Shown: piece by piece, positions 9,764 through 34,562 of the stretch
Layout of the letters: every line of letters starts with the position of its first letter
How positions within the stretch are numbered: position 1 is the stretch's first letter
Source: Candidatus Altimarinota bacterium
GTDB lineage: Bacteria > Patescibacteriota > Gracilibacteria > BD1-5 > UBA6164
DNA length: 41,590 nt
Assembly (NCBI GenBank): GCA_028696815.1
Contig: JAQVGG010000011.1
Coordinates: forward strand, 1 to 41,590
Reading direction: 5' to 3'
Translations under genes and position numbers: made by a program
The notes under the pieces: model-generated
Told to the model about the DNA's origin: nothing
Database searches by the model: none
Seen by the model: the letters and a program-made list of their open reading frames with translations, nothing else

Positions 9764-9788
9764 CTTAACTCAATTACAAATTAAAAAC

Positions 9789-9851
9789 TACGAATTATCA
9801 AATAGTAAAATACAAATTACTATCTGTAATTCGTAATTGCGAATTGATAAT
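9789..9851. repeat. AT-rich inverted repeat with TACGAATTA words
   Basis: ATTATCAA (9794-9801) pairs with TTGATAAT (9844-9851), and the interior carries ACGAATTA and TAATTCGTAATTGCGAATT words. It is the same word family as in the spacers around rpmB. Confidence 0.5.
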
Positions 9852-9859
9852 TTAAATTT

Positions 9860-9936
9860 TGGTGGAGCCTAAGGGAGTCGAACCCTTGACCTCCTGCGTG
9901 CAAGGCAGGCGCTCTAGCCAACTGAGCTAAGGCCCC
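9860..9936 (-). tRNA. tRNA-Ala (anticodon UGC)
   Basis: The acceptor GGGGCCT pairs with AGGCTCC (one G-U), the discriminator is A, and CCA is encoded. The anticodon loop CTTGCAC gives UGC. The T-arm GGGTTCGACTCCC and the D-arm TAGCTCAGTTGGCTAGAGC are canonical; total 77 bases. A possible -10 (TATAAT at 9981-9986, minus strand) lies upstream. Confidence 0.97.
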
Positions 9937-10019
9937 AGATTTTTTGTAAACAAAAATGTAATTTTCGCCTCACCTAACTGATTATAGAAAATTATCATTA
10001 TATTTACATGCTTTTTTTA

Positions 10020-10096
10020 TGGCGGGAGTGACGGGGCTCGAACCCGCGACCTCGGCAGTGACAGTGCCGCGCTCTAGCCAACTGAGCTACACCCCC
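10020..10096 (-). tRNA. tRNA-Asp (anticodon GUC)
   Basis: The acceptor GGGGGTG pairs with CACTCCC (one G-U), the discriminator G is as expected for Asp, and CCA is encoded. The anticodon loop CTGTCAC gives GUC. The T-arm GGGTTCGAGCCCC is canonical; total 77 bases. Confidence 0.97.
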
Positions 10097-10160
10097 GCAT
10101 ATATTTATTTTTTTAAATGTATTAGGTAATATTACCTTACATATTAACAAAAGCGGACGA

Positions 10161-10189
10161 ATTATATAAAATTTTAAAAACAATGCAAA
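10161..10189 (-). promoter_or_regulatory. Promoter of tRNA-Asp
   Basis: Minus-strand TTTGCA (10184-10189) and TATAAT (10161-10166) are exactly 17 bases apart, about 65 bases before tRNA-Asp. A 14-base perfect palindrome AGGTAATATTACCT (10124-10137) lies between promoter and tRNA and could be an operator or leader hairpin. Confidence 0.65.
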
Positions 10190-10200
10190 TTTTTTTTTAT

Positions 10201-10243
10201 TTTTTTTATACAAGCCCTAAAAAAAGGGCTTGTATAAAAAAAA
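10201..10243. terminator. Strong terminator after the ligase-peptidase gene
   Basis: TTTTTTTATACAAGCCCT and AGGGCTTGTATAAAAAAA form an 18-bp stem around an A-rich loop. It directly follows the stop of the minus-strand fusion gene and insulates the tRNA promoter beyond it. Confidence 0.9.
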
Positions 10244-27782: not shown

Positions 27783-28301
27783 TTAAAACTCTAACTCATC
27801 CAAAATCATATCTTTGTATTGATTTACTTTTTCTTTTTCTGTAGTAAGCTGATGATAACTTGTATATGGGTAATCTTTTATATCTTTAACAAGTTGGTGT
27901 TTTAGAGGATTAAAATTAACATATGCTATGCATTGGTATAAATAAGCTTCATCTCATATATATTTTGCTTTAAATCTTCACTCAAAAAATGGTAATTTGT
28001 TTTCCAATGGATATTTTGTTCTATGCCAAACAGAATATGCTCATTGTAACCTTTTCATAAACATCGAAATCTGGGTACCGGTACCGCCGTTATTGTGTAT
28101 GATAAAATGGAAATGATTTGGTAATAAACAATAAGATACAACTTTTATATCTTTGTATTCATTTATTAATGCTATTAGATATTTATAAAACTTAACAAAA
28201 CAATCTTTATTATTAAAAATAACAGATTTATTATATCATCTATTATAAATATGATAATATCAATTTTCTACAAATGGATCTCTTGCATTTCATCTTCACA
28301 T
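27783..28301 (-). CDS. REP-associated tyrosine transposase (RAYT, Y1/HUH family)
   Basis: This 172-residue protein fits the IS200-like/RAYT family: RDPFVENGYYHIYNRGYNKS at the start, the HUH pair H63-F-H65 in CLLPNHFHFII, and MKRLQGAYSVWHRT with the presumed catalytic Tyr. FFEGRFKAKYIGDEAYLYQC and YVNFNPLKHQLV near the end are typical of RAYTs. In known cases these single-copy enzymes act on REP palindromes elsewhere in the genome. Here GGTACCGGTACC occurs 4 bases before the ATG and again inside the gene, where it encodes Gly-Thr-Gly-Thr just after the HUH motif. No terminal IS ends were found. It is intact and may be active. Confidence 0.9.
28074..28085. repeat. GGTACCGGTACC palindrome inside the RAYT gene
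   Basis: A perfect 12-base palindrome is read in frame as GTGT (about residues 73-76), between the HUH motif and the helix carrying the presumed catalytic Tyr. It is identical to the palindromes at 28306 and 28370. Confidence 0.8.
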
Positions 28302-28305
28302 AATA

Positions 28306-28401
28306 GGTACCGGTACCAAGTAAAATCATATCAATGATAATTAAATACTTTATTTAGTCAAATCAAAAGGGTACCGGTACCTCCTATAGGAGACCGGTCT
28401 C
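28306..28401. repeat. REP-like palindrome cluster upstream of the RAYT gene
   Basis: GGTACCGGTACC (28306-28317) abuts the RAYT start, and an identical copy is at 28370-28381. The second copy is followed directly by TCCTATAGGA and then GAGACCGGTCTC (28390-28401), all perfect palindromes. Between the two GGTACCGGTACC copies lie about 50 AT-rich bases. The arrangement resembles clustered REP units. Confidence 0.8.
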
Positions 28402-28488: not shown

Positions 28489-31400
28489 TTAGTAAGTGAA
28501 AGTAGATTCAGCAGTTGGTAATCCAACATTAGAGTAAGAAGAAACAGAAGAAATAGTTACATTTCATCCAGTATTCATCATATCAACATAACTTACATCT
28601 TGTACAGTCATGATTCTTTTAGCATTAGCAGCGTTACCACTTAACATACCACCACTAAGTTTTAAGATAAATGTTTTAGTTGTACCAGCTGAGATTTCAG
28701 TGTCTAACCCTGTAAGAGTTAATTCATTTGAACCAGCAGCTATAATACCTGTAGCTATACTATTACCAGAAATTTCTTGATCTTTATACAGGATAAATGC
28801 ACCTGTAGAAGAAGAAGGATTTTGTAGGTCAATAGTAGCTCCAGAAAGAGTAATTCTATTGTTAGCATCAGCTGTTACAGTAAATGTATGAGTAGTTAAT
28901 GTAGCAGCAGCTGAAACAGCTAGAGTTGGTTTAGATCTAACAAGTAGGTGAGATTTAGCAATAGCTGTTTCTTCACCACTTACTGAAGTAACAGTATCAC
29001 CTGTAGCTTCAGAAACTAATCTAACACCATCAGTAGTACCAGAAACAGTAGAGATTCCAGCAAGAGTACCAACAGCTAATCTAATAGTTTTATTAGTTTG
29101 AGCAGCAGCAGTTACATCGTTAAATGCAGCTCTAACAACAACTACTGAATTAGAAGTATTTTTAGGTATTACAAAAGAAGATGTAGAACCTAGAGCAAAT
29201 TGAACAGTACCAGTTCCTAAAACAGAACCTCCTGCTAATTTGTTACCAGCTGTATCATATAAGCTTATAGTTTTTAAGCTAGATGATAGATCAGCAGATC
29301 CAGTGTTGTATAAGTATAGGTCAGTTAATTTTAAAGCATCATTTTGAGCTCCAAGAGTATATCTAGCTAATTCAACTTCTGAAGTAGAAGGAGTTAGGAT
29401 AGATGCATTTGGAGTAGATGAGTTTAAAGCAACTGTAGCAGTACCAGCACCTTTAAATGTATATAATACACCATTAGATGGTTCAGTTACAGCATCACCA
29501 GTACCACTAGTAACTAAAGTTATACTGTTAGAATCTCTAGCTTCAACATTAGTTAATTCTAATTGGAATTCTTCATTTACATTTATAGCAGTAGAGAAAT
29601 CAGCAACAACAGAAACTTGTACAGCATCATTTTTAGGTATTACTATATTTATATCATTGAAATCAGCATTTCAAGATGACATATTTTTAGTAGAAACAAC
29701 AGAACCATTAACAAGTAATTTAACATTAGTTACATTAGCAGCAGTTACACCTGAACCAGAAACAGAAGCAGGAGCAAATGTTAATTTAGTAACAGTTACT
29801 GGAGAAACATCATTAGCTCTCATAGAGAAACTCATTAATGTTTGGTTACTTGAACCAACAGTAACATCTTGGTTAGATATACCATCATTTCTAGTCATAA
29901 CTAGAGTAGCTGAACCAATAGTAGTAGTAACAGCAGAAGCTGAACCAACTTTTTGATTAGTATCAACAGAGTTACCATTAGCAGCGTATTCAACTATAGC
30001 AAAATCTCCCATATCTATACTATTAAGTGCAAAACTTGAAAGATTAGGTGCATTAGTTTTAACATTAGCTAAGATTTTTAAAGTAGTATCTCAGTTAATA
30101 GTAGCAGTACCTTCTAAATCAAAAGTAGTACCAGTAGCACTAGATGGAGTATAAGTAGAAACAACACTATTTCCTATCATCAATTTTATTGAAGAGAAAT
30201 AATTGAATAAGTTCATACTAGTATGAGTAACAGTTAAATCTTCCACAGTTATAGGTTGATTTACTTTTAATACAGCATCTAATAATACTACATCGTTTGT
30301 TCCAGGAGCAACAGTTTGAGAACTAGAAGTTGTAGCTTTAGATAAGATAATATCACCACCAGTAACTTTATATGATATAGCAGTACCTGATTTAGTAATA
30401 GAAGCTCTAAAACCAGTAGCAGTTTCATCAACGATTAAATCGTCAGTATATCTTAGAGTAAATTTATAAGTATCACCGTCTGTTGAATCAACAGAATCTA
30501 CATCAGCTCTAACATAGAAAGTTTCAGTTCTACCAAAATCTACTAAACTATTAACAGTAAAAGTAACGTTTTTTCCATCAAATGAATAATCACTAGATAT
30601 TTTTACATTATTACTATAAATAGCTAAGTTAGATAAATTAGTATCCATATCACCATCACCGTCATTTCTTAAAGTGATAGATTTAAAAGTAACTGATTTA
30701 TCATTTCAAGCATTATTTGTTAATTTAAATTGTGCTAATTCTACATTTGTATCACCTGCTCTATAAGTAGAAGGTGAACCAGAAGTAGCATACGCAACAG
30801 GAACAACAGTATAGTTAGCAGTAGTCATTGTAGAAGTAGAAACTGGGAAGTTTCCAGCTATAGAAGCGCTAGCAGTTATATCTGAAGCAGATACTATAGA
30901 GAAACTATGTTGAGATCCAGTATCACCATCTAAAGTAGCAACTAAGTCTAATGTTTCAGTTTCACCAGCTCTAATAACGAAAGCAGGAGAAAAAGTTATA
31001 TAAACTGATTCATCAGAACCAACAGTTTGTCTACCAGAAACTCTAACACCATCTTTTTCCATCCATACTCTATCAAAATCAGCTCTATCACCTAGACCTG
31101 TTCTAACAACTCTTATAGATTCAAGAGTAGTATCTTGGTTACCAGCAGTAAAATCAAAACTACCAAAAGTAACTGTACCAGAATTTGGTATAGATTTAGC
31201 AGATGAAGTAGTTGGAGATAATTCTACAGACATACTAGATCCAGTAGGAACAACTACAGTAGTTCCACCGTTAGTATCAGTAGTATCATCATCCATATCA
31301 TCAAGACCATCTAATAGTCCAGATAATAGGTCATCATCTTCTCCTGCCATAACAGCAGCATCCATAGAAGCAGTAGCAGCTTCAAATACCCATCCTCTAG

Positions 31401-31926
31401 TAGCAGGAGTATTATAATCAGTGAAAGCAGAAACTATTCCGTTTTCAGAAGCGAAAGCTACTAATTGTTCTTGCCAAGAAGTAGATAAAGTAGAATCATA
31501 GTTATAATCAGCACCAAAAGCAGCTTTTACAACCATACCTAGAGCTTCAGCTTTAGTTATGTTAGCTTCTGGATTAAATTTAGCGTTAGCAGCTATCATA
31601 TTGTTAACTCTAAGAGTTTCAACAACGTAACAAGCCCAAGTATTTGGAGTTGTAGCAGAAACGTCTGTAAATAAGTTATCACAAGTTGTTTTTTTAGTTA
31701 AACCTGCAACACCCATAGTAACAGCAGCGATTTCTTGTCTTAGAACGTTTTGATCTAAGTTGTAACCAGCTGGATTAGCTGAGTTATCATTAATTATCCC
31801 TTGAGAAGCTAATGTATTAGCAGCTTCAAGAGCAGCAGTACTATATGCACCAACTGATGGAGCAGTAGAAACTACAACCATAGTAGATAGAGCTATAGTA
31901 GCTATAATCTTTTTAAATAAGTTCAT
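28489..31926 (-). CDS. SLH-domain S-layer-like surface protein (1145 aa)
   Basis: The 1145-residue protein has a signal peptide (MNLFKKIIATIALSTMVVVS, cleaved after VGA). S-layer homology-like repeats occupy residues 30-195, recognisable by FTDVSATTPNTWACYVVETL, FNPEANITKAEALGMVVKAA and WQEQLVAFASENGI. An Asp-rich linker (DLLSGLLDGLDDMDDD, about 197-215) leads to about 900 residues of Thr/Ser/Val-rich predicted beta domains. Those domains carry repeated motifs such as DKSVTFKSITLRNDGDGDMD and VVPTGSSMSVELSPTT. It is likely the S-layer or a main surface protein. It uses GGN for most glycines and TGA only a handful of times, unlike its neighbours, which fits high expression. The glycosyltransferase gene ends 33 bases upstream. 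The beta domains could bind calcium or carbohydrate, but this is not shown. Confidence 0.85.
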
Positions 31927-31959: not shown

Positions 31960-33039
31960 CTAGGAAAAAACTTTAGATAGTTGTTCTTCAAATACACCTG
32001 ATCAGAAATTGGAAACAGCTATATGGTAAGAATTTTTTGAAAACTCTTTTCTGAGATCCTCATCTTTTAATAGAGTTTCTAGTTTTGAGATAAAATCTTT
32101 ATCAGATTTTACCAAAAAACCATTTTTTCAATTTTTGACCAGTTCAGAAACTCATCAAAAATCAAATCAAACTATAGGTAGTCCTGCAAGCATAGCTTCC
32201 AAAACCACCATACCAAAAGAGTCAACCAGAGAAGGAAATAAAAATATATCAGCATCTCTTAAGTTTTTGATAATTTTTTTATCATCTAGACTTCAAAGAA
32301 ACATTATATTTTTGTTGTTAGAGTATTTAGTTTTGAATACATCTAACTGTTTTCCTTCTCAACCTATAATCAAATTAAAATCATATTTTTTTGAAAGCTT
32401 AGAAAAAGCTTCAAAAACAATTTTTATGTTTTTTCACTCAACCCATCTAGAGTAAGTAAAAATATTTATTTTTGTTTTTTTAGTATCTTTTGACGGAGTC
32501 AAGTTATAAAACTCATCTCTACATCTTGGATACAATAATTTAATTTGATTATTTTCTCAGAAGATATCTTCTAAAGAACTCTTTATATATAAGCTATTTG
32601 CAATTAATACATCTATGTATTTTACAGAAAACTTTTCTAAGAGCCTTTTAACCTTAAGTAAGAAAGATGAATGTTTTTTAGTATGATACCATGGATAATG
32701 ATGATTCCACCAAAATAACTTAGCCTTACTTCTAAAAAGTAATTTTGATAAAACTCCTACAAAATGCATAGGAGAGTTTCATGCAAATATTATTTCATAG
32801 TTTCTAATCTTATAAGCTATAATTAAATAACTTATAAATTTAGGTCTAAAGCTAATTTCTTCTATAGGAAAATTAATTTTTCCTATAAAGTTATCTTTGT
32901 TGAGTTTAGTAGTATATAAAGCTACATTATTTCATTTATTTTGAAGAATATATGAAAGGTAAATCATCATATTAACAGCTCATCACACCTCAAAAACTCG
33001 AGGATGCAATACAGCTATACGTTTATTTTTTGGTATCAT
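31960..33039 (-). CDS. Family 4 glycosyltransferase
   Basis: This 359-residue protein has the GT-B/GT4 layout. The N-terminal half starts IAVLHPRVFEVGGAVNMM (Gly-rich acceptor-side loop) and includes WWNHHYPWYH. The C-terminal donor-binding half contains FTYSRWVEGKNIKIVFEAF and the signature FLFPSLVDSFGMVVLEAMLA followed by GLPIVGFDFGGVSELV, with the EX7E-type glutamates of GT4 enzymes. It transfers a sugar from a nucleotide-sugar donor to a cell-envelope acceptor. It lies 33 bases upstream of the S-layer-like gene on the same strand, so S-layer glycosylation is a reasonable guess. Stop TAG. Confidence 0.9.
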
Positions 33040-33052
33040 AAATAAAAACATA

Positions 33053-33225
33053 CAAAAAAGGTTAAAGCCTTAACCCATTGTTGTGTCCACAACCCTGGGA
33101 AACAAACAAGCAACAGATTGCTTATCTATTTTCCAGAGTTGTTAATAAGACATAACAAACAAAGATAAGGTTTGTAAATATTTTTTAGTTAATCAGTCTA
33201 TGTTAAAGAACTGTAAAAATTAACG
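33053..33225 (-). ncRNA. Candidate small RNA of unknown family (about 170 nt)
   Basis: A stand-alone transcription unit is visible on the minus strand: promoter at 33232-33260, predicted start near 33225, and an intrinsic terminator GGTTAA-GGCT-TTAACC plus six T at 33053-33072. Between them lie a stem closing GTTAAT with ATTAAC, a small ACAAA/TTTGT hairpin, and a long rod. In the rod TTGTTATGTC pairs with GACACAACAA (one G-U), ACAACTCTGG pairs with the CCAGGGTTGT side (one mismatch), and an AAGCAA/TTGCTT tip closes it. No open frame is apparent. Size and rod shape recall 6S RNA, but the outer hairpins do not fit and no SRP, tmRNA or RNase P motif is seen. The other 5' candidate is the glycosyltransferase leader. 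Confidence 0.6.
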
Positions 33226-33231
33226 TGCTAT

Positions 33232-33260
33232 ATAATATTTGTTTTTATAAATAAAGTCAA
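33232..33260 (-). promoter_or_regulatory. Promoter of the candidate small RNA
   Basis: Minus-strand TTGACT (33255-33260) and TATTAT (33232-33237) are exactly 17 bases apart, one of the best promoters in the window. Confidence 0.7.
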
Positions 33261-33326
33261 ATGTGCAAAGTCATATTTCACACACTCTTCACATAAGCTT
33301 TTTAAAGAGAGAAACCGTGTAATTAC

Positions 33327-33354: not shown

Positions 33355-33402
33355 TAGATTATTTAATAGGTATAAATAGCTAAAAATAAGTAAAATACAA
33401 CA

Positions 33403-33430
33403 AAAAGAGGTAATTAATCACCTCTTTTTT
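33403..33430. terminator. Terminator of the pilus operon
   Basis: AAAAAGAGGT-AATTAATC-ACCTCTTTTTT forms a hairpin 23 bases beyond the pilC stop and separates the pilus operon from the small RNA promoters. Confidence 0.9.
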
Positions 33431-33452: not shown

Positions 33453-34562
33453 TTAGCTATTACTTACAGTATCTGCTAAATTCATAATTGGTTGCATAAT
33501 AGCCATTGCTATAAATCATACTACAACTGCTAAAAATACAATTATAAATGGTTCAAGTAATTTGTTTAGATTTGTAATTGTATTGTCAACCTGCTCATCA
33601 TAAAAATCTGCAACCTTTACTATAACTTGATCAAGTTTAGCTGTTTCTTCTCATACCTGTATCATCTGTGTAACCATTTCTGGGAAGAACTCATCTGAAT
33701 CTATTGATTCCCATATTTTGATACCTCCTTTGACATCTTCACTAAGAAGCAAAAGTCTTTGTCTATATGCTTCGTTTCATACCGCATCAGAAGTTATTCT
33801 CAATGACTCAACTATAGACACTCAAGATCATATTAATCATGCAAATATTCTAGAGAATTTTGATAAAATTATTTTTCTTACAACTTCTCAAAATACAGGT
33901 ACCTTTAATATAATACTATCAAATAAATATCTTCAAGAAGCTGTTTTTTTCCACAATGAAATTCAAACTATAATTCCAAATACTAATATAATTATCAAAT
34001 ACCAATAGTGGGTAAAAAAGTTTGATAAAGCTATTAAGGTTTGAGTTGAAGCTGGAAGTGAAGCTTTATCTTCAAATATATCAAGAAGTTTAGGAACAAC
34101 CATTGTCATCATAACAAATACAACTCAAAAAACTACTACTAGTATAAATAATGGATATATCATGGCAGATTTTAGTTTACCTGATATAGAAGCTACTTTT
34201 TCTACTTGATTTGCTAAATCTAACAATACTGTATTTAACTTTCAAGTTTTTTCTCAAGACCTAACTATTCAAACCTCTGCATTTGAAAAAGATGAAGGAT
34301 AAAGCCCTAGACATTCTGATAAACTTTTTCATGATTTAAGTTCTTCACAAAATCTTCACAATATCTTTTTAAAAACAAGATTTTTCTCTTGTTTTTCCAG
34401 TACCATCATTGATCTTAATAAGCTCATTCATGCATTTACCATTGTAGACAAAAGTCTATAAAATATAACTTTTTCTTTTGTCTTTATAGTTTGCATAGAA
34501 ATAAGCATTTCATTAAGCTTTTCCATAGCACTCTTTTCTTGAATTTTTTTTACATCTATCAT
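33453..34562 (-). CDS. pilC: Type IV pilus inner-membrane protein PilC/GspF
   Basis: This 369-residue protein has the two repeated GspF domains. The first includes FYRLLSTMVNAGMSLLRSMM and the signature IVRSGEKTGKLNTVLLDLAN followed by a membrane segment. The second includes FSRIFAGLIGSGVSIVESLRI, then MVTQMIQVGEETAKLDQVIV. It ends in a membrane helix LEPFIIVFLAVVVGFIAMAI. Three membrane segments are visible. PilC forms the platform that PilB works on to assemble pilin. It lies 23 bases after pilB. The gene uses TGA for many invariant glycines, such as that in RSGEKTG. No retraction ATPase (pilT) or pilin is in the window. Confidence 0.93.

Follow-up and report, generated by a model that had tools for sequence, protein, structure and literature searches.

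A structured RNA specific to one order of Gracilibacteria is probably a 5' leader of the S-layer operon

Does the stretch of DNA between pilC/gspF (33453-34562) and a GT4 glycosyltransferase gene (31960-33039, minus strand; PF00534, 3.8e-37) encode a small RNA of its own, or does it belong to the genes that follow? The window, a contig of 41,590 nucleotides from a member of a Gracilibacteria family, is read here with genetic code 25, in which TGA specifies Gly. An earlier note on this DNA had proposed an independent small RNA gene, made up of a consensus promoter, a long rod and an intrinsic terminator, in a 413-base gap with no open frame. Indeed, we found no code-25 frame of at least 60 aa in the region. 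The size of the gap also fits the glycosyltransferase start at 33039, although it is not strictly the longest in the window, as had been stated: under code 25 a gap of 480 bases (9764-10243) contains two tRNAs. The structured RNA as a whole runs on the minus strand from about 33226 to 33054 and comprises, with its promoter, a boxA, a rod of ~25 pairs, a small hairpin and a 16-nt hairpin. A terminator-like hairpin found by terminator scan (33402-33429, strand not assigned) separates pilC from this promoter. The glycosyltransferase gene is the first gene 3' of the RNA, and its stop codon lies 33 nt from the start of a gene for an S-layer protein of 1145 aa (28489-31926, minus strand). An IS200-like (Y1_Tnp) transposase ORF is found just 3' of the S-layer gene, at 27783-28334.

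The element is not confined to this genome. A blastn search of 60 related genomes detected it in 27, every one of them from a single family. These loci have in common an upstream direct repeat, the promoter, boxA and the rod, together with a GUUGU..ACAAC hairpin and a 3' hairpin that hardly varies; one additional match, in genome G030, falls inside a coding region. The 14-base core GTTAAGGCTTTAAC occurs in one copy each in 32 of the 36 genomes of the family and in none of 24 other genomes of the order, and the reversed control sequence was found nowhere. A covariance model of the rod and 3' part (R1) had matches in 53 of 77 genomes from the order, with 10 of the 53 in a sister family, and gave no match among about 240 genomes of the phylum outside the order. 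When both families were used to train a further model, R2, its matches were likewise confined to the order in a search of 288 genomes of the class. Scanning 84,980 species genomes for the pattern yielded 45 stretches, of which almost all carry the label Gracilibacteria or Patescibacteria. Conservation in relatives, a check that the earlier note had suggested, was found by covariance model, and compensatory changes by alignment. Its statement that the family is unknown also stands, as Rfam 15 gave no match at gathering or permissive thresholds. 6S RNA is similar in being rod-like and of comparable length, but Rfam gave no match in the window or the genome, and a search of the whole genome (G000) for RF00013 at E<=10 found none while control genomes did match; the RNA described here is, moreover, bound in cis to one gene. 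The literature searched, with most subscription journals outside its scope, contained no match for a boxA-bearing S-layer leader or for structured RNAs from Gracilibacteria. Judged from the compared sequences, this is a real, uncatalogued family of structured RNA, restricted to a single order within the Gracilibacteria.

What lies 3' of the RNA is constant. The S-layer protein gene follows on the same strand, directly or at times with one glycosyltransferase gene between, in 50 of 51 evaluable loci. It was found with 50 of 54 distinct leaders, and three of the remaining ones are truncated where the locus or contig stops. The last, L144, matches the leader pattern but has no S-layer gene beside it, and lies on a contig in a Mucilaginibacter bin; it is probably a chance match to the pattern, with a mis-binned contig as the alternative. 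Clustering of the flanking proteins gave the same picture, with one large secreted protein 3' of 27/27 family loci, on the same strand and either direct or past one glycosyltransferase. In the sister family, matches to an RNA-only model lie directly before homologues of the S-layer protein; PilC was not found upstream within the few kilobases examined there. SLH domains exceed the Pfam cut-off in 8/8 homologues scanned, and the window copy carries a weak SLH; a sequence search of the S-layer protein against the PDB gave no match. Comparison among relatives establishes this linkage, as it does the RNA structure, the promoter architecture and the boxA sequence. A periodic surface layer was already expected for a BD1-5 Gracilibacterium (PMC6851277).

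The promoter named in the earlier note is present, on the minus strand, with TTGACT as the -35 element (33255-33260, its position kept in relatives), a 17-bp spacer and TATTAT as the -10 element (33232-33237); the position of the latter predicts a transcription start near 33226. Promoter-like matches occur in the window at chance density (19 found by the scan vs 15.9 expected), yet this one is credible because an upstream direct repeat and its spacing are conserved in relatives. The repeat, GTGAAGAGTGTGTGAA (33277-33292, minus strand), is a likely activator site of the form GTGAA-N6-GTGAA, which occurs in 48 of 53 leaders against 0.015 expected from mononucleotide shuffles. Where it is present, it almost always lies exactly 16 bp from TTGAC. 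Direct repeats of 11 bp are typical of OmpR/PhoB-type regulators, and since the repeat has this spacing, a response regulator of the OmpR/PhoB type is perhaps the activator.

Near the 5' end of the predicted transcript lies a boxA, TTCTTTAACATA (33199-33210, minus strand), a motif common to rRNA leaders. A lone boxA-like match carries little weight in AT-rich DNA of this kind; we accept this one because its place in the leaders is constant, the consensus TCNTTAAMA being found in 46 of 55 against 2.7 expected. This genome and ten relatives also have a matching boxA in their 16S rRNA leaders, 3' of the promoter. Across these genomes the two kinds of boxA show no strict within-genome co-variation, only a shared set of variants. 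boxA is usually a signal of rRNA operons, and its classical role is to oppose Rho. A profile search of the 98.8% complete genome for Rho returned only low-scoring matches below the family cut-off, so this role may not apply here. NusB is encoded (PF01029, 1e-13), and the boxA may load NusB/S10 and function via the Nus complex. Pairing of boxA with GGUUAAGG of the 3' hairpin was considered and rejected by inspection, as several boxA variants (CATTAA, CCTTACCA) break the pairing while the hairpin is unchanged.

The long rod that the earlier note described as stable proved to be so by prediction (-50.9 kcal/mol, z = -6.1, with 0/200 shuffles as good). Its 5' arm (33118-33142, minus strand) contains segment A, ACAAC at 33142-33138, and its 3' arm (33089-33113) contains segment B, GTTGT at 33093-33089. 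In the alignment of leaders, 19 of the 25 rod pairs have changes on both sides. The covariation score of the rod is 0.488, as compared with 0.198 +/- 0.014 for shuffled partners, a control that ignores relatedness, and at most 0.177 for slid partners, a control that accounts for it; with the sister family added the score is 0.547 vs 0.223. The next hairpin, GTTGTGGACACAAC (hairpin 2; 33080-33093, minus strand), pairs segment B with a downstream segment, A', and so excludes the outer rod pairs A-B. The parts well supported in relatives are the rod and this GUUGU..ACAAC hairpin (mean z -1.78). The stem TTGTTATGTC/GACACAACAA, also put forward in the earlier note, folds in the window, but its average support in relatives is weak (mean z -1.05), and we did not retain this outer stem as the conserved core, since both the rod and hairpin 2 are stronger.

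At the base of the rod, segment B (GUUGU or GUUAU) therefore has two possible partners, A on its 5' side and A' on its 3' side, and 45 of 55 leaders are able to form both pairings. B and A' vary together: 25 leaders have GTTGT/ACAAC-type and 11 GTTAT/ATAAC-type combinations, five have a G-U pair and none the A-C combination. However, B-A' pairing is only modestly above that in shuffles (4.6 vs 4.07 pairs), and the composition of the linker explains much of it. The three segments may constitute a switch, or may merely be a mobile junction.

The last element, GGTTAAGGCTTTAACC (hairpin 3; 33060-33075, minus strand), is almost invariant in the order, with the 16-nt consensus GGUUAARGCUUUAACY. It is too constant for covariation to be informative; the few departures in its stem in relatives are G-U wobbles. 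The earlier note took it for an intrinsic terminator, which our results do not bear out: the 6-bp hairpin with its T6 tract (33054-33059) is predicted at only -3.5 kcal/mol and is not listed by the terminator scan, and the hairpin is kept in relatives while the U tract is absent in many. Hairpin 3 is followed by a U-rich tail, taken as 5 or more T in 8, in 17/17 leaders of the glycosyltransferase type and in about 17/38 others, with the types classed by us and relatedness uncorrected. Because of this difference and the T6 tract, partial termination is possible in the leader type found in the window, whereas hairpin 3 as a general terminator is not supported. Hairpin 3 looks like a recognition site. 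From hairpin 3 to the S-layer start codon is only about 33 nt in two loci, L018 and L026. Extra stem-loops with a common loop, CTGACC(A), lie between hairpin 3 and the S-layer start in five loci of the sister family (L126, L127, L128, L130 and L131).

The linkage to the S-layer gene, the missing U tracts and the distance of ~33 nt to the start codon argue for a leader rather than a small RNA gene, and this spacing suggests that the RNA is co-transcribed with the downstream gene. The best explanation of the whole, which we consider probable though well short of certain, is a structured cis-acting 5' leader of the S-layer operon with an activated promoter, boxA/Nus loading and mRNA protection. 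What speaks against it is the copy in the window itself, where the T6 tract and the intervening glycosyltransferase gene leave room for partial termination. A rival reading is an attenuator, in which a ligand, a protein or the state of RNA polymerase would make A/B/A' and hairpin 3 with its U-rich tail toggle between termination and read-through. The two alternative pairings, the joint variation of B and A' and the distribution of U-rich tails are all as such a device would have them. However, hairpin 3 is overlapped by neither alternative, so that no clear link from switch to terminator exists; moreover, the hairpin is weak, many members have no U tract, and the B-A' pairing owes much to the linker. 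We consider an attenuator unlikely.

Somewhat less likely still is that the leader is cut to free a stable RNA that also acts in trans, for example in feedback on surface genes. The long, near-perfect rod would suit RNase III and the constancy of hairpin 3 a recognition site, but the RNA is single-copy and always in cis, and both a trans target and processing are purely hypothetical. The proposal of the earlier note, a trans-acting small RNA gene whose adjacency to the S-layer gene is mere retained synteny, can point to its own promoter, a stable fold and, in the window, a hairpin with T6. Against it stand the strict linkage, in two families, to a single gene on the same strand, the many members that lack a U tract, the weakness of the hairpin and the short distance from hairpin 3 to the start codon, and we regard it as very improbable. 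The least credible reading of all takes hairpin 3 for a DNA operator and not for an element of the RNA: in much of the sister family GAGGTTAAAGCTTTAACCTC forms a perfect DNA palindrome, but the wobbles in relatives preserve the RNA hairpin and spoil the DNA symmetry, which favors RNA, and the sequence has a fixed place within a covarying RNA and one copy per genome.

If the RNA is a leader of the S-layer operon, its parts could act in turn. An activator bound at GTGAA-N6-GTGAA, 16 bp before the -35 element, would switch on the promoter; boxA would then load NusB/S10, as in rRNA operons, and keep RNA polymerase going through the structured leader and for kilobases beyond. The rod, hairpin 2 and hairpin 3 would fold 5' of the reading frame, where they may stabilize the mRNA or set its output, and the leader as a whole would support very high S-layer expression. 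The S-layer leader resembles rRNA operon leaders, with their boxA and NusB/S10 antitermination, in the motif and its similar place after the promoter; it differs in preceding protein genes, in its other structured parts downstream and in the GTGAA-N6-GTGAA site. Conservation of boxA in the 5' UTR of a protein-coding mRNA has a parallel in the suhB leader of Enterobacteriaceae (PMC5725501). There, however, boxA represses, which counts against a role in raising output, and it does so with Rho-dependent termination, whereas here no Rho exceeds the cut-off and expression of the gene seems to be very high. In other bacteria, S-layer genes have long-lived mRNAs and, like this one, strong promoters (PMC8056022). 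Their leaders show no sequence kinship to this RNA as far as tested, and Rfam has no match. A bolder formulation is that an order-wide RNA family lets the S-layer mRNA of an apparently Rho-less host borrow boxA and Nus from rRNA operons and adds to them a bistable A/B/A' and an invariant hairpin. We advance it tentatively, as a doubtful possibility; were it true, S-layer synthesis would be run and controlled as a stable-RNA operon. For an uncultured lineage that uses code 25, the RNA offers a defined, testable element of the surface-coat gene, and a boxA kept on the mRNA of a structural protein, with no clear Rho gene, provides a natural test of a Rho-independent role for boxA.

The codon usage of the S-layer gene also favors the reading as a leader. 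TGA makes up 4 of its 86 Gly codons (5%), as compared with about 62-86% in the remaining window genes and 28% in typA, and this low use is a likely sign of high expression. Avoidance of TGA-Gly may thus be a handy expression marker in this genome. The typA/bipA homologue, also low in TGA-Gly, lies at 277-2079. At several directly linked S-layer loci a candidate hairpin that would hide the AUG is visible: the start codon often lies where ACUUAUAG....CUAUGAGU could form a hairpin, with a U-rich stretch, TTTATTTT, before it, for example in L020, L052 and L134.
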